From Thamnidium elegans (lineage: Eukaryota; Mucoromycota; Mucoromycetes; Mucorales; Mucoraceae): DNA of 64,000 nucleotides. The position numbers were made by a program, and so were the translations under genes. The stretch spans positions 558,001 through 622,000 of the forward strand of contig JAIXMG010000012.1 of the NCBI GenBank assembly GCA_025201345.1, in the 5' to 3' direction. Below, in pieces: positions 14,376 through 49,226 of this stretch. The notes beneath the pieces are model-generated. The model worked only from the letters and a program-made list of their open reading frames with translations, was not told the DNA's origin and ran no database searches. The number at the start of each line of letters is the position of its first letter. Positions within the stretch are counted from its first letter, which is position 1.

Positions 14376-14590
14376 TCATACTATGCATGTAGAAGGGACG
14401 ATCGCTTTGACAGGTGTACCCTTTTTGGGCCGTCCTCTATTACGAGTGATGTTGATATTAAAGTCAGCCTCATCTATAAAGACACTTTTTTTTTTGGAAA
14501 GCCAATATTATCATCGGCTATCCATTTTCTACTTTTGTTTTTCTTTGTTCGGTTACTTAAATATGATTTCTTCTGGCAGGAAAGAAACTA
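14376..14590 (-). pseudogene. IS630/Tc1-mariner transposase remnant
   Basis: Reading the minus strand gives a conserved patch around VFIDEADFNINITRNRGRP followed by KKGTPVKAIVPS. This matches the second catalytic Asp region of IS630/Tc1-type DDE transposases, where FIDEAGF is followed by a GTPA-like motif. The upstream part (KWIADDNIGFP) is one base out of frame across an A10 run, and a stop follows soon after the patch. No N-terminal DNA-binding part, no C-terminal acidic residue and no inverted repeats were seen. It is a dead fragment of roughly 70 codons. Confidence 0.7.
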
Positions 14591-41356: not shown

Positions 41357-41859
41357 ATGACTTTTGATTTTGAAGAAAAGCAAGGCGATCTATTTGAATC
41401 GATCGTGCCTACTGATAGCGTCGTATTATGCGTAACTGAGGATTTAAAATTAGCAAGTAAAGGTGTGACGGGTTCAATTCGCCAAAGATTAGCTAATCAA
41501 CTATCACAAGCTCATAAGAAATCGGTTGGACAAGTAGGATATTTCACTTTGCAACAAAAGCGTCATGTATTTTATCTGGTTACTAGACAGAAATCGTATA
41601 ATAAGCCTTCTGTTAATGATATTGAAACTTGTTTGATTGAATTAAGAAAAGTTTGTGAAAAATTAAATGTGTATAACTTGGCTTTACCGCGTGAGTTGGA
41701 AGGATTACAAGAAAAGTATTTAAAAGACGTGTTATTTAACGTATTTCAAGGTAAATTTTGTTTTTTTGTTTTTGCTTGTAAAAAGTTTATTAAATCATCT
41801 TCCCTTGGAATTTTTTAGGTTGGCCTGGTAAGATGGTCATGTATCAATCACCAGAATAA
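41357..41859 (+). CDS. OARD1/TARG1-like macrodomain protein with altered active-site loop
   Basis: Two exons (41357-41750, 41819-41859) give 144 residues, a single macrodomain. Start QGDLF and then VVLCVTEDLKLASKGV match the ADP-ribose-binding first loop of OARD1-type macrodomains. GQVGYFTLQQKRHVFYLVT and KSYNKPSVNDIETCLIELRKVCEKL follow the same fold, including the lysine-rich loop used by TARG1. The segment that in OARD1 is GCGLD, carrying the catalytic Asp, reads ELEGLQ here. The protein may bind ADP-ribose derivatives; whether it still hydrolyses ADP-ribosyl bonds is doubtful. The alternative is a Poa1-like phosphatase branch. Confidence 0.7.
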
Positions 41860-42094
41860 CAAGTACTCTTACAGATAAAAAATAATGATTGACCAGTTGC
41901 ATCTTTTTTAATTGAGGTTTAAAAATAAATAAATAAAAAAATTCCAGATATGTACTCCATCAGTACTTTATCTCACATCATTTTATGAGGAAGGGTTTCT
42001 TACAATGTACAAATAGAAAAAAAAAGAGAGAAACCGGAAAAAGGTATTATATGCGTAATGTCGATATGAGGGGATCTATGTCCCAAAAGCAGTA

Positions 42095-42393
42095 CAGTGC
42101 GGCTGGTAAATATTGTCACTTTGTGAAAAATAAATGTCGCTAAGCCAAAAACATATGGCAGTTATTGAAATCTAATTATCGGTTTGGGCAAAAATATTTG
42201 CAAAAACCATTCAGATCACTAACTATTACATTGGAAGAGTTCCAAAACTCTAACACCCTGCATTACTAAATACCTTAATGAAATCCTAATGAATAAAATT
42301 AAAATACAGCCAATCATAAATGTGTATGCACATTTAGATTATTTGTACGGTTACGGGTACGGTTACGGGTACAGGTACGGGTACTTTTTTTTT
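42095..42393 (+). repeat. Left terminal inverted repeat
   Basis: It begins CAGTGCGGCTGGTAAATATT and ends in the GGTTAC/GGGTAC array and a T run. Relative to the right arm it has an extra GCATTACTAAATACCTT after CACCCT. Confidence 0.9.
42345..42384 (+). repeat. GGTTAC/GGGTAC array at inner edge of left TIR
   Basis: Forty bases made almost wholly of 6-bp units GGTTAC, GGGTAC and AGGTAC, each sharing a GTAC or TTAC core. The array ends 30 bp before the start codon of the plus-strand gene. Confidence 0.85.
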
Positions 42394-42413
42394 ACTCTTC
42401 AGTTTTCATTACA

Positions 42414-42991
42414 ATGAGTGAAAGTAGGTAAACTTGTAAAGTCAATTAGACTACTTTGCTGATAGCTCTTTAGTTGTGAAAGTTTTACAAAGCTCTACAT
42501 TTATTAAATTGCTTACTGAATCCATTATAAAAAAGGATTGTCCTAATTTTAGTTTTGTTCAAGTAGAATTTTTGGGTAATGGTTCTTATTTTGTTCTTTA
42601 CATGGCTCAATCATGTGCAATCCTTTTGGAGATTCAGTCAAATATTACAAAAATTTCGATGAAACAGTCAGCCAAAAAATGTTTGGAGATATTCTATCGC
42701 TTTGACATTCAACATTTGCTTGTTATTCTTTGTACTGACAAGATCTCCTCGTCAGTAAGATCACTGCTATCAGCCACTTTGGAAAATTCTCATTGGCAGA
42801 TACTCGATAGTACTGTATGGGCGGAAAAGTGCTTAATCGTCCTCAAAGATGCAATTAACTCTAGTGAAGACGAATCAAACAAACTTGACCCATTAGTGGT
42901 ATTTGCGATCTATTTTTCAGATGATAAAATGCAGAAACAAAAGCTGCGAGATGCTGGCAATCCCATTATGAGGGATATAAGTGATTGTTAG
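42414..42991 (+). CDS. PD-(D/E)XK-like protein with altered active site (element gene 1)
   Basis: Two exons (42414-42423, 42474-42991) joined at GTAGGT and TTTAG give 175 residues starting MSEIVKVLQSS. It aligns with the first half of the other gene in this element: AILLEIQSNI with PLIVEIQHTI, CLEIFYRFD with CLQAFTRYH, LLVILCTDKI with PIILIICAEKL, and AEKCLIVLKDAI with AEQCYIISKESI. Glu57-x-Gln59 is retained, but the position of the partner's catalytic-type Asp is Tyr42 (SYFVLY against SDMVLE). It lacks the C-terminal half of the larger protein. Likely a nuclease-dead partner or a decayed paralogue. Confidence 0.7.
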
Positions 42992-43237
42992 TCGTACTTA
43001 TGACTTTATCAAAATTGGTCCTTCTTGAGTGCCGCTCATCAGTTATAGACTATTACAACGATTTAAATGTTATGTTTTTAATAAGAATTCTAACGAGTTT
43101 TCTCATCTTTTAAACTAAAGATATATAGACATTTGTTATTTTTTTAGCACTTTTTACAGCATGTTACATATTAAATTAGTGACTGATAAAGGAATCACGG
43201 ATGGTTAGTTGATACCCAAACGTAGAGAAAGGATTAT

Positions 43238-44287
43238 TTAATTTGAATTATCAGGATTTGTTTCTTTTGACTTTCCTTTTTTGATATACTTGAAGAATTG
43301 TTGGCGTAATGATTCAGAATTTTTATAATTTAATATATTTAAATTCTCCCCTTCTTTTAGACAAGCGATCCAACTCATTCTTTTCCCTTGCTCCATTGTC
43401 TTTTGTTTAAATTCGGCGACAAATTTCATGGCTTCTTCATACATGTTACCGTTTCTGTCAATTGTGGTGGTGGCTGTGGATGTTGTTGGTGGTGGGGGGA
43501 CACTCGTATTTTTTTTATTTGAAGAAGATTCTGCAGTAAATAGCTCTTCATATTTCCTTTTCATCGTCAGAGCTCTTGACTTTGCACTGTTTACGGCTTC
43601 TCCCAACTGTGGTTGATTAAGTGAATATGTGAGTGCCAATAATTTATCATATTCCACAAGTTGAAAATCTATAAATGAAAGCGGCGTATCTTTGTTAATG
43701 GTGCTAATTTGATGCTGGAATATTGTTGAGGTGTATAAGTATTGAATGGTTGAATCAATTTTGAATGGATGATCTGTTAATGAGAGACTACGGTTTATAA
43801 AAAAAGAACCAAGTGCAATTAATGGGTTCAGGGGAGTCAGCAAATTATCTTCGATACTTTCTTTAGAAATAATGTAACATTGTTCTGCCCATGGCTGTGA
43901 AAAGTATGAAAAGACACCTGGGAGCTTGCTTAGTTTCACATGTTTATGTATATCTTGATTAAGCTTCTCTGCACAAATAATCAATATTATAGGATCATTA
44001 TGGTATCTTGTAAACGCTTGTAAGCAATAGTTGACAGTTCTTTTCATGAATGATTTGTTGATTGTATGCTGAATTTCCACGATTAGAGGAGGGAGATCTG
44101 AGAGAGCGTTCTTTGGCTCAAGAACCATGTCGGAGCGTGTACCGTCTGTCCATTCGCAATTTCCAATAAAATAATCGTCTGTTGTTTTTACCAGAGAATC
44201 AGTGATAAGATTTACAATTTTGGGATCTCTTAGGATTCCTTTGGCCATTTGATCTTTTCCAGACTTTAATTTCGTAGGTAAACTCAT
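43238..44287 (-). CDS. PD-(D/E)XK-like protein, Rpn/YhgA-type core (element gene 2)
   Basis: A single open frame of 349 residues. Residues about 20-165 form the core: ITDSLVKTTDDYF, then Asp53 in TRSDMVLE and the Glu71-Ile-Gln73 motif in LPPLIVEIQHTINKSFMKR, and then IILIICAEKL, AEQCYIISKES and LNPLIALGSFF. The D-xn-ExQ pattern with the helical block after it is that of PD-(D/E)XK enzymes of the Rpn/YhgA transposase-associated group. From memory, similar proteins are abundant in Mucorales. The second half is polar, with a Pro/Thr-rich linker and a Lys-rich tail. The start codon lies about 20 bp inside the right TIR. Confidence 0.75.
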   Translation of the reverse strand: MSLPTKLKSGKDQMAKGILRDPKIVNLITDSLVKTTDDYFIGNCEWTDGTRSDMVLEPKNALSDLPPLIVEIQHTINKSFMKRTVNYCLQAFTRYHNDPIILIICAEKLNQDIHKHVKLSKLPGVFSYFSQPWAEQCYIISKESIEDNLLTPLNPLIALGSFFINRSLSLTDHPFKIDSTIQYLYTSTIFQHQISTINKDTPLSFIDFQLVEYDKLLALTYSLNQPQLGEAVNSAKSRALTMKRKYEELFTAESSSNKKNTSVPPPPTTSTATTTIDRNGNMYEEAMKFVAEFKQKTMEQGKRMSWIACLKEGENLNILNYKNSESLRQQFFKYIKKGKSKETNPDNSN

Positions 44288-44307
44288 AAAAATTTAACAA
44301 CTAAAGG

Positions 44308-44596
44308 AAAAAAAAAAGTACCCGTACCTGTACCCGTATCCTTACCCGTAACCGTAACCGTACAAATAATCTAAATGTGCATACACATTTATGATTGGCT
44401 GTATTTTAATTTTATTCATTGGGATTTCATTAGGGTGTTAGAGTTTTGGAACTCTTCCAATGTAATAGTTAGTGATCTGAATGGTTTTTGCAAATATTTT
44501 TGCCCAAACCGATAATTAGATTTCAATAACTGCCATATGTTTTTGGCTTAGCGACATTTATTTTTCACAAAGTGACAATATTTACCAGCCGCACTG
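44308..44596 (-). repeat. Right terminal inverted repeat
   Basis: Inverted copy of the left arm. It ends (outer side) in CCAGCCGCACTG followed by TA. The inner GTACCC/GTAACC array at about 44318-44363 mirrors the left array with slightly different unit order. Confidence 0.9.
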
Positions 44597-44747
44597 TATA
44601 TATACAAACAAAAACTTTATGTGGGGCCCGGTTCTTCAATTTTTCTCACACTAAAGTAAAACATGTATTAAAACTTTCACAAATGACGTTCCTGGGGGGA
44701 GGACTTTCTTTTCTCTCTTTTTTAATTTTTTTTAGAAAAAAAAAAAA

Positions 44748-46189
44748 ATGAGTTCTGACGAAGAACAAACATCTTTACTTAACAATAGGGCAGGCTATCA
44801 TGGTCAAAGCCATTGGAATCGATTAAAGAAAAGTACTATGGTAATTTATATTCCTTATACTGTTAAAAATAAATAAATAAAAACTTAATTATTCGTTAAA
44901 AGATTATTCGTGCTTTCTGTGTATTTTCAGTTTTGATTGCTTTAGCTGGTGGTACTTGGATTATTCAACGGTGCTTAAATACAAATAAAGAAATCGACTT
45001 TAGCTCATTAAAGGATTACTGTAAACACATTCCTTCCATTCAATCGGATGAATACACAGGACGTCATAAACGATTAGCCAAAACTTTAGAAGCTGAAAAC
45101 GTCGATGCTTTAATTATGGAAGGTGGAGCTTCTATGGTCTACTATACCAATATTGAATGGTCGTTATCCGAAAGAGCATTTATGGTTATTCTCCGTGTAA
45201 ATAGTTCTGAACCAACTGGTATCCACACCACCATCGTCACTCCTGCGTTTGAAGCAACTCGTGCTCAAGAGAGTTTAAAACATGCTAATTTACCCTCAAC
45301 TATTCAACCCGATATTGTTGAATGGCTTGAACATAAATCTCCTTTTGAATCTGTAAAGAGTTTGTTTCAAAATGATAAGCCTGAGAGTGTGATTATTGAA
45401 CAAAACGCTAGATTGTTTATCTATGAAGGCGTTTCGAACGCATTAAAAGATACTCGTGTAGTTATGGCTCCTCAATCGATTCGTAAATTACGCATGGTCA
45501 AATCTTCAGCCGAATTAGATATTATGCGTTGCGCCAATACAGTCACTGATTTAGCCATTCGTGCGGTACGTCCTCATATCCAAGTAGGCATGACCGAATT
45601 CGACATTCAAAAGATCATGTCGAGAGCACTTGAGGTTGCTGGACTAACAAATACTTGGGTGCTTGCTTTGGTCGATGAAAACGCAGCTTTGCCTCACGGT
45701 TCTTCCAGCACCAAGAAAATTACAAAAGAAAGCACGGTTTTGATTGATACCGGAGGAGAAATTTTAAAGTATCAATCGGACGTTACCAGAACTTTCTTTA
45801 TGGGTGAAAGAGGTACGAATCAGACTATCGAAGATGCTTGGTATCTTGTGCGCCGTGCACAAGAAAATGTATTGAATCGTACAGGAGCTGGAATGAGCTG
45901 TGCGGAGTTGGATTTAACGGCTCGTCATGTTATTGAAAGTGGTGGGTTTGGAAGGTATTTTACGCATAGACTTGGTCATGGCATTGGGCTGGAAGGTCAT
46001 GAGGAGCCTTATTTAAACCAAGGGAACACAGACCAGTTTGTTACGCCAGGTATGACGTTCAGTGTTGAACCGGGAATTTACGTCACTCACCAGTTCGGTA
46101 TTCGTCTCGAAGATGTGGTGGTCGTTGGTCAAGACGGAAAATTAGAATTATTGACGAGTGGGTTAGCTCAGAACCCTTGGACACTTTAA
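44748..46189 (+). CDS. Membrane-anchored M24 metallopeptidase (Xaa-Pro aminopeptidase-like)
   Basis: Two exons (44748-44840, 44903-46189) give 459 residues. A short polar N-terminus is followed by one hydrophobic segment (FCVFSVLIALAGGTWII, about residues 36-52), suggesting a type II membrane protein. The creatinase-like N-terminal domain (RHKRLAKTLEAENVDALIM) precedes a pita-bread catalytic domain with all metal ligands: IDTGGEILKYQSDVTRTF (two Asp), HRLGHGIGLEGHEEP (His), FSVEPGIY (Glu) and IRLEDVV (Glu). It should release N-terminal residues before proline or cleave X-Pro dipeptides, probably in an endomembrane or surface compartment. It lies directly right of the TIR element. Confidence 0.93.
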
Positions 46190-48311: not shown

Positions 48312-49226
48312 TGGTCTATTGAAAGAAGGAGGAGGATTAATCGCTGTTGATCCATGGGTGTACGTGTCTATTTGTTCTTTTTTTTACGTCTCATCCTTGA
48401 TAATACTGCAAAAGAAAAAGAGTTGTCAAATGTAGTTTTTTTTTTCTTTGATTAATTAAGTGATACGATATGGCTTAAAATTAACGCAGTTTTACCAACA
48501 GGCTGCCATTTGAACACCTATTCTGATAAGTAATACATCATAAAAGAAAGAAAGAGATATATTGCTGTTTTATAACGGAAAAGGAATATTAACACCTCAT
48601 TGATAAAAGATTAAGTAGGTTGTTTTGAAGAAGAAGTGTAAGGGGGTAATTTTGCATATTTTCGGTATGAAATCTGGCAAACAAGTATAAGATAAAAAGT
48701 TTAATATTTTAGAAAGAAAAAATTTGTGCTAAAGCAGGTGTCTTTCTATTATTACTTTTATAACAAACTACTTTGTCCTACCTTTATCATATAAATAATT
48801 GGGCTAGGACGATAGTTCAGGAACAAAAGTTTTTTTCGTCTCGAAATTGATCTCTCCCTGTGATATCAAAAGCCAGAATACAAGGCAATTAAAAAAAATA
48901 CTATAGTATTCTAGTATTTGGGAAAAAAAATTCAATTTTCGCAAAGGGATTGGTGGGATTCATTTATGATCCAAATTTACGATACTGACGATGCAATTGT
49001 TGCTATGGTAACAGAGAGAATCAACTGTTTCTATGGTAACAGAAAGAGGAAATAAGTGTGTTTATCTCACCCGAGCTTAATCCTATTGAGTTATTCCGCG
49101 TCCAGCACACTCAGTAGATCTATCTGAAGCAGTTCAAATACCGACTTCTTTTCCAGTGGCTTGGCACAGTTTTTTTTTAATAATAGAGTTTTTTTCCAGT
49201 AATTAATTCTTTTCTTAAGGGATACA
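48312..49226. other. Intergenic region upstream of the Rio1 gene
   Basis: Contains two copies of a CTATGGTAACAGA(G/A)AGA-like motif (about 49003 and 49031), a direct repeat of roughly 16-18 bp, then the presumed promoter of the following gene. Confidence 0.4.

Follow-up and report, generated by a model that had tools for sequence, protein, structure and literature searches.

A transposase-less Tc1/mariner-type element of Thamnidium elegans carrying a predicted Rpn-like nuclease gene and its catalytically dead paralogue

A 64,000-nucleotide stretch of contig C4 in the 34.1-Mb genome of Thamnidium elegans (Mucorales), referred to here as the window (positions 1 to 64,000), contains at 42095 to 44596 an element of about 2.5 kb that is flanked by TA, has the terminus CAGTG, and carries two convergent genes. 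The gene on the minus strand encodes a full-length protein whose active site aligns with that of bacterial Rpn nucleases, and the gene on the plus strand encodes a short paralogue that has lost catalytic residues. The explanation that we favor, with confidence that is about evenly balanced, is that this is a transposase-less Tc1/mariner-type element moved in trans by a Tc1-like DDE transposase and that its predicted Rpn-like nuclease is bound and restrained by the short paralogue. In this mechanism, a Tc1-like DDE enzyme from another genomic locus would work on the common termini, DNA cleavage is predicted for the full-length protein, and the short protein would pair with the full-length nuclease and restrain it, which may be the reason why the dead copy is kept. 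The near-identical arms upstream of the two genes could keep their expression in step.

Structure of the element and its two genes

The body and its flanking TA dinucleotides, which we read as a target-site duplication (42093 to 42094 and 44597 to 44598), together span 42093 to 44598. Arm comparison places the left inverted arm, with the first letters CAGTGCGGCTGGTAAATATTG, at 42095 to 42393 (plus) and the right inverted arm, with its CAGTG terminus at 44596, at 44309 to 44596 (minus). Positions 42093 to 42259 and 44432 to 44598 are 100% complementary over 167 nt including TA, and the inner arm parts match at 92% (42269 to 42384 with 44324 to 44439) and 96% (42346 to 42393 with 44309 to 44356), so that the inverted arms of about 290 bp, starting with CAGTG and flanked by TA, that were reported in a preliminary description of this DNA are upheld. 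The inverted-repeat score was 167 versus a best score of 14 in 20 shuffles of 41500 to 45200. Alignment of the arms over their whole length shows three differences: an indel of 17 bp, a single substitution, and variation in a tandem array with a 6-bp unit (about TACGGT/TACGGG). This array occupies 42345 to 42384 in the left arm, shortly before the plus gene, and is mirrored in the right arm at 44318 to 44363 (period 6, 7.7 copies by TRF). The arms remain alike until about 20 bp upstream of each start codon, and thus both genes have near-identical upstream sequences. None of nine DDE pieces used as queries matched inside 42095 to 44596 at an E value of ≤0.01, in agreement with the earlier view that the cargo includes no transposase. 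Elsewhere in the window, small DDE_3-like remnants are located at 14388 to 14492 (minus) and 49030 to 49096 (plus).

The minus gene occupies 43238 to 44287 with its stop codon (coding sequence, 43241 to 44287) and encodes 349 aa. All five active-site residues of Escherichia coli RpnA (D11, D63, E82, Q84, and R94) align with residues of the window protein (D12, D53, E71, Q73, and R83), and an hhalign comparison of the family with E. coli RpnA, RpnB, and RpnC gave an E value of 1.3e-4 and a probability of 54% over 59 columns around the active site. The family appears to be remotely related to the bacterial Rpn (PF04754) PD-(D/E)XK nucleases. The window protein itself has no Pfam match above the curated PF04754 cutoff; one family member, L025, exceeds it (22.1 bits versus 21). 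A Foldseek search of the whole predicted model against the PDB returned no match at an E value of ≤0.001, no significant match was found among viral structures, where PD-(D/E)XK proteins occur among the weak matches, and PADLOC gave two weak, unrelated matches. TnpB/Fanzor cargo was considered and rejected because neither the window protein nor 28 family members have such a Pfam match and the active site aligns with that of Rpn. Several nuclease genes, including that in the window, have a tandem array with a 6- or 9-bp unit immediately before the start codon; an upstream tandem array of any kind was found at 11 of 17 nuclease loci versus 91 of 380 unmatched control stretches, several of the arrays being merely T-rich, and a tie between such arrays and nuclease starts is only suggestive.

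The plus-strand open reading frame (ORF) spans 42440 to 42991. With a predicted 38-nt GT-AG intron at 42428 to 42465, the gene would start at the ATG at 42414, consist of exon 1 (42414 to 42427) and exon 2 with the stop codon (42466 to 42991), and encode 179 aa. The annotated T. elegans protein P0017 is 100% identical to the plus ORF; the intron-bearing model begins with MSESS, and the MSES start recurs in the homologs from Pilaira (P0019) and Rhizopus microsporus (P0022). An hhalign comparison aligns 161 columns of the plus ORF with the nuclease family at a probability of 98.8%. In the numbering of the active gene, F replaces D53 and Q replaces R83, E71 and Q73 are retained, and the C-terminal part is missing; structure prediction for this short protein gave a poor model. 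As judged from this alignment, the plus gene is a short paralogue of the nuclease with its catalytic Asp and Arg lost. Of the two nuclease-fold genes first described, the minus gene accordingly keeps that designation as a fit to PD-(D/E)XK, whereas the plus gene has the same ancestry without the catalytic Asp.

Conservation and recurrence of dead partners

Homologs of the short gene show 83% identity in Benjaminiella, 85% in Pilaira, 82% in Cokeromyces, and 71% in R. microsporus, and among six aligned rows, the D53 position is F in all six and the R83 position is Q or K in all six. In Benjaminiella, both genes are located on one contig of 3,453,436 bases, with the locus tags 574968 and 574972. 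Between Thamnidium and Benjaminiella, the dead gene is 83% identical versus 63% for the active gene (81% versus 66% in multiple alignments). The occurrence of the two genes is patchy: among the matches listed, Parasitella and Mucor mucedo have a close relative of the active gene but none of the short one, and Pilaira and Cokeromyces have a close relative of the short gene but none of the active one; Pilaira also has a distant family member. The peptide DWSKFVFVNHPNSLWHHPKF, encoded upstream of the short gene of R. microsporus (P0022), is also found in T. elegans (L018, 910 to 1125), where its reading adjoins, by eye, a nuclease fragment and a DDE remnant; its presence in both genera is a hint of a common element sequence across genera.

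The pairing is repeated within the T. elegans genome. Eight convergent pairs, on contigs C1, C4 (the window), C12, C26, C29, C30, C32, and C42, were read from opposed matches within 4 kb or from inverted repeats with ORFs, a reading that covered part of the 67 nuclease clusters and left out a divergent pair on C45 and a 10-kb inverted pair on C25. Seven of the eight include a short partner in which two or more active-site residues are gone: R83 is lost in seven short partners, D53 in six (with an alignment gap at C30), and E71 in six. By comparison, 12 of 14 other Thamnidium copies, some of them fragments, keep D53, E71, and R83; the two others are the C12 copy, which lacks D53, and the C32 copy, which lacks R83, which casts doubt on the presumed active partner in both pairs. 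For C29, the full-length partner was seen only as database matches. Both copies of the C1 pair (dS, the synonymous divergence, of 0.14) keep the residues; this locus (L022, 1286 to 3510; C1:2211970 to 2213764) consists of two facing nuclease genes in an inverted duplication whose arms span 664 bp or more, and it may represent the starting state of the active/dead pairs.

The dead partners are spread over several lineages of a 33-row tree, with those of C26/C42, of C32/C12/C29, and of the window group each placed close to their active counterparts; some of these branches are weakly supported, and C30 is on a long branch of unsure placement. A single origin of the dead partners is not favored: the tree requires four changes, and one origin was recovered in 0 of 200 bootstrap trees, which suggests that dead partners arose more than once. 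The ratio of nonsynonymous to synonymous divergence (dN/dS) between other dead partners was 0.33 to 0.46 in three comparisons, versus about 0.7 between two decayed copies (C34 versus C8). The loss of the same residues again and again in a short copy that is nonetheless retained argues for a useful dead partner.

Terminus family and probable movement in trans

The terminus CAGTGCGGCTGGTAAA, taken without TA, has 13 exact matches in the genome versus none for its reversed control, and TA precedes 12 of the 13. With TA included, the 18-mer has 74 genomic matches at up to three mismatches versus 6 for the reversed control. Many of the aligned ends have in common CAGTGCGGCTGGTAAAT(A/T)TTG and a subterminal AAATGGCG-like unit. 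The Tc1/mariner-type signature first noted at the ends is therefore borne out by TA on both sides and by a terminus family that is dispersed after TA. The genome contains at least 165 DDE_3 matches, and among 30 fetched terminus matches, DDE_3-type remnants were found in 6 of 30 inner flanks versus 0 of 30 outer flanks, with one piece of the DDE query panel coming from C1 itself. The six inner flanks represent four loci (both ends of one element at C1, two ends at C7, and one each at C18 and C25), and the remnants start 122 to 344 bp inward of the 18-mer, measured between nearest edges, and read outward. At C1:1417752 to 1421179, a DDE C terminus lies within both arms, and the ends match those of the window element in 20 of the outer 21 bp. 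In general, the outer 16 to 21 bp are common to the window element and the elements with DDE_3 remnants, in some cases with one or two mismatches.

Since the end family is of the Tc1 type and the window copy has no DDE gene of its own, this copy is best read as nonautonomous, and on sequence grounds it is probably a Tc1/mariner relative moved in trans. This agrees with trans-mobilization by a Tc1-type enzyme, one of the two routes proposed at the outset. The preliminary description had also considered that related arms might enclose an ordinary DDE gene, making the window element a simple internal replacement; the end family is indeed of the ordinary Tc1 type, which bears out that possibility in part, but no copy with full 290-bp arms around a DDE gene was found in the genome, and the best arm relatives match over 102 to 107 bp. 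Partial relatives of the arm are located on C34 (102 bp, 95%), C63 (107 bp, 86%), C22, C56, and C30.

Several of these relatives bound other cargo. The two closest, on C34 (L010, from 4307) and C63 (L011, 1641 to 4677), adjoin neither DDE nor nuclease sequences and instead lie next to another pair of mutually similar small ORFs (L010, 5283 to 5597, minus; L011, 3316 to 3606, plus) with no clear Pfam match, which by sequence are further cargo on the same kind of ends. The C22 relatives are both ends of one 3.9-kb element (L009, 2208 to 6094; C22:84208 to 88094), which is flanked by TA, has CAGTGCGGCTGGTAAA at both ends, and contains ORFs of 99, 126, and 209 aa; it has no DDE match, and its 99- and 209-aa ORFs have no Pfam match above the cutoff. 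A second terminus type, CAGTCGCTCC, bounds nuclease-carrying elements on C62 (L080, 1532 to 3709) and C23 (L031, 368 to 2982; C23:254302), and at C62, a DDE C-terminal remnant and a nuclease lie within one pair of such ends, which are alike in 17 of 24 bp. At C26:393023 to 401365 (G000), the C26 nuclease pair and an ORF that by eye resembles a reverse transcriptase lie between oppositely oriented DDE fragments (393023, plus; 401365, minus).

Alternative explanations, known systems, and biological meaning

TnsA of Tn7 is a PD-(D/E)XK nuclease that works with a DDE transposase, and it is likened to the window nuclease here by description, not by sequence. An analogous role for the window nuclease, as an accessory transposition subunit that joins a Tc1-like DDE enzyme in cleaving the element ends or their vicinity and that forms an asymmetric, nicking heterodimer with its dead partner, is the alternative that survives best and is nevertheless unlikely. 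Among the DDE matches listed, 11 of the 67 nuclease clusters lie within 2 kb of a DDE_3 match versus 1.8 expected under uniform placement, four clusters lie within 1 kb versus 1.1 expected, and with a smaller DDE set, 7 of 67 lie within 3 kb versus 1.8; the counts used 75 of 91 nuclease matches, the other 16 being second pieces near an included one. Uniform placement overstates this enrichment because mobile elements nest, and 56 of the 67 clusters have no listed DDE match within 2 kb. Tc1-type enzymes, moreover, cut both strands unaided. The C62 ends, holding a DDE remnant and a nuclease together, and the description of TnsA as a PD-(D/E)XK transposase subunit (PMC10327210) favor the idea, whereas the same preprint reports no evidence of transposase function for rpn (PMC10327210). 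The earlier suggestion that the nuclease-like proteins themselves take part in transposition was not borne out, as the analysis yielded no direct evidence for it.

Ranked below this is passive cargo, in which a Tc1-type element captured a nuclease gene that then underwent inverted duplication and decay, the short copies being pseudogenes. Many nuclease matches in the T. elegans genome are indeed fragments or contain stops, the dN/dS between the decayed C34 and C8 copies is 0.7, and inverted duplications are common around nuclease genes. However, the conservation of the window's dead partner across four genera, with F at the D53 position in every row, and the lower dN/dS values between other dead partners make this explanation quite improbable.

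Lower again, and decidedly doubtful, is a homing-like drive, in which the nuclease would promote recombination at empty sites or between copies, leading to copying by break repair that is tuned by the dead partner. Arms that are nearly identical although the genes are old fit conversion, and Rpn overexpression in E. coli increases RecA-independent recombination (PMC5350276). On the other side, RpnA has little if any sequence specificity (PMC5350276), and the TA flanks and dispersed ends indicate cut-and-paste movement. A settled host gene pair at an old immobile locus, with arms kept alike by gene conversion, is very improbable: both genes are old in Mucorales, and their Benjaminiella locus tags are only four apart, but the ends are members of a terminus family scattered through the genome, in which TA precedes nearly all exact copies, and among the matches listed, the genes are patchily distributed across genera. 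The dispersal of the terminus and its position after TA also place a rearranged, immobile host locus low in the ranking.

The trans-mobilized, nuclease-restraining element that we favor has partial precedents. Among the transposable elements of the Mucorales genomes in one study, Tc1/mariner forms the largest group (PMC7928374). The window element shares with members of this group that hold DDE_3 remnants the TA duplication, the CAGT terminus, the outer 16 to 21 bp, and subterminal AAATGGCG-like units, and differs in having no DDE gene and in having long arms that extend to both cargo genes. Fanzor-only mariner elements such as PUl-4 carry a gene for a bacterial-type protein within mariner ends, with TA and no transposase, and related elements carry both Fanzor and a transposase; the table of that study also includes Rhizopus, Phycomyces, and Mucor (PMC3627910). 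They resemble the window element in having a bacterial-type gene within Tc1/mariner ends, a TA duplication, and no transposase, but Fanzor is TnpB-like, whereas the cargo here is an Rpn-like PD-(D/E)XK nuclease facing a dead paralogue. The first impression that no named fungal element has such a layout thus gives way for the transposase-less arrangement, which has this precedent, and stands for the cargo: the open-license literature, searched in part, yielded no description of an Rpn-like fungal family, of a Tc1 element of Mucorales that carries a nuclease, or of a Tc1-type element whose nuclease is paired with a dead twin.

RpnA cuts DNA weakly and with little specificity (PMC5350276), and in bacterial Rpn systems, a short protein derived from the nuclease itself, its C-terminal part, can be an antitoxin (PMC10327210). 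The window pair resembles such RpnL/RpnS toxin-antitoxins without being one. Both combine a full-length nuclease with a shorter derived protein, and their remotely related nuclease domains have the same five active-site residues. RpnS, however, is translated from an internal start within the bacterial nuclease gene and corresponds to its C-terminal part, whereas the short protein of the window is encoded by a separate convergent gene, spans the catalytic domain with catalytic residues lost, and belongs to a fungal host and an element with Tc1-type ends. A tentative extension, which we regard as rather unlikely, is that a poison-antidote pair, a eukaryotic version of the Rpn type, travels on the Tc1-type transposons of Mucorales: the nuclease would harm nuclei or spores that are free of the element, the dead twin, having arisen on more than one occasion through inverted duplication, would protect those that keep it, and the element would persist by addiction combined with jumping.

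The dead catalytic paralogue and the recurrent pairing go beyond the preliminary description, which was made from the sequence alone. The element connects bacterial Rpn nucleases, formerly labeled putative transposases, with a gene family present on eukaryotic DNA transposons. In addition, the arrangement in which a short copy deprived of active-site residues lies opposite a full-length nuclease appears to have arisen more than once. If the dead twin does not restrain the nuclease, the strong conservation of a dead nuclease paralogue calls for another explanation. If it does, fungi would hold transposon-borne toxin-antitoxin pairs, which could be tested in yeast with two small genes.
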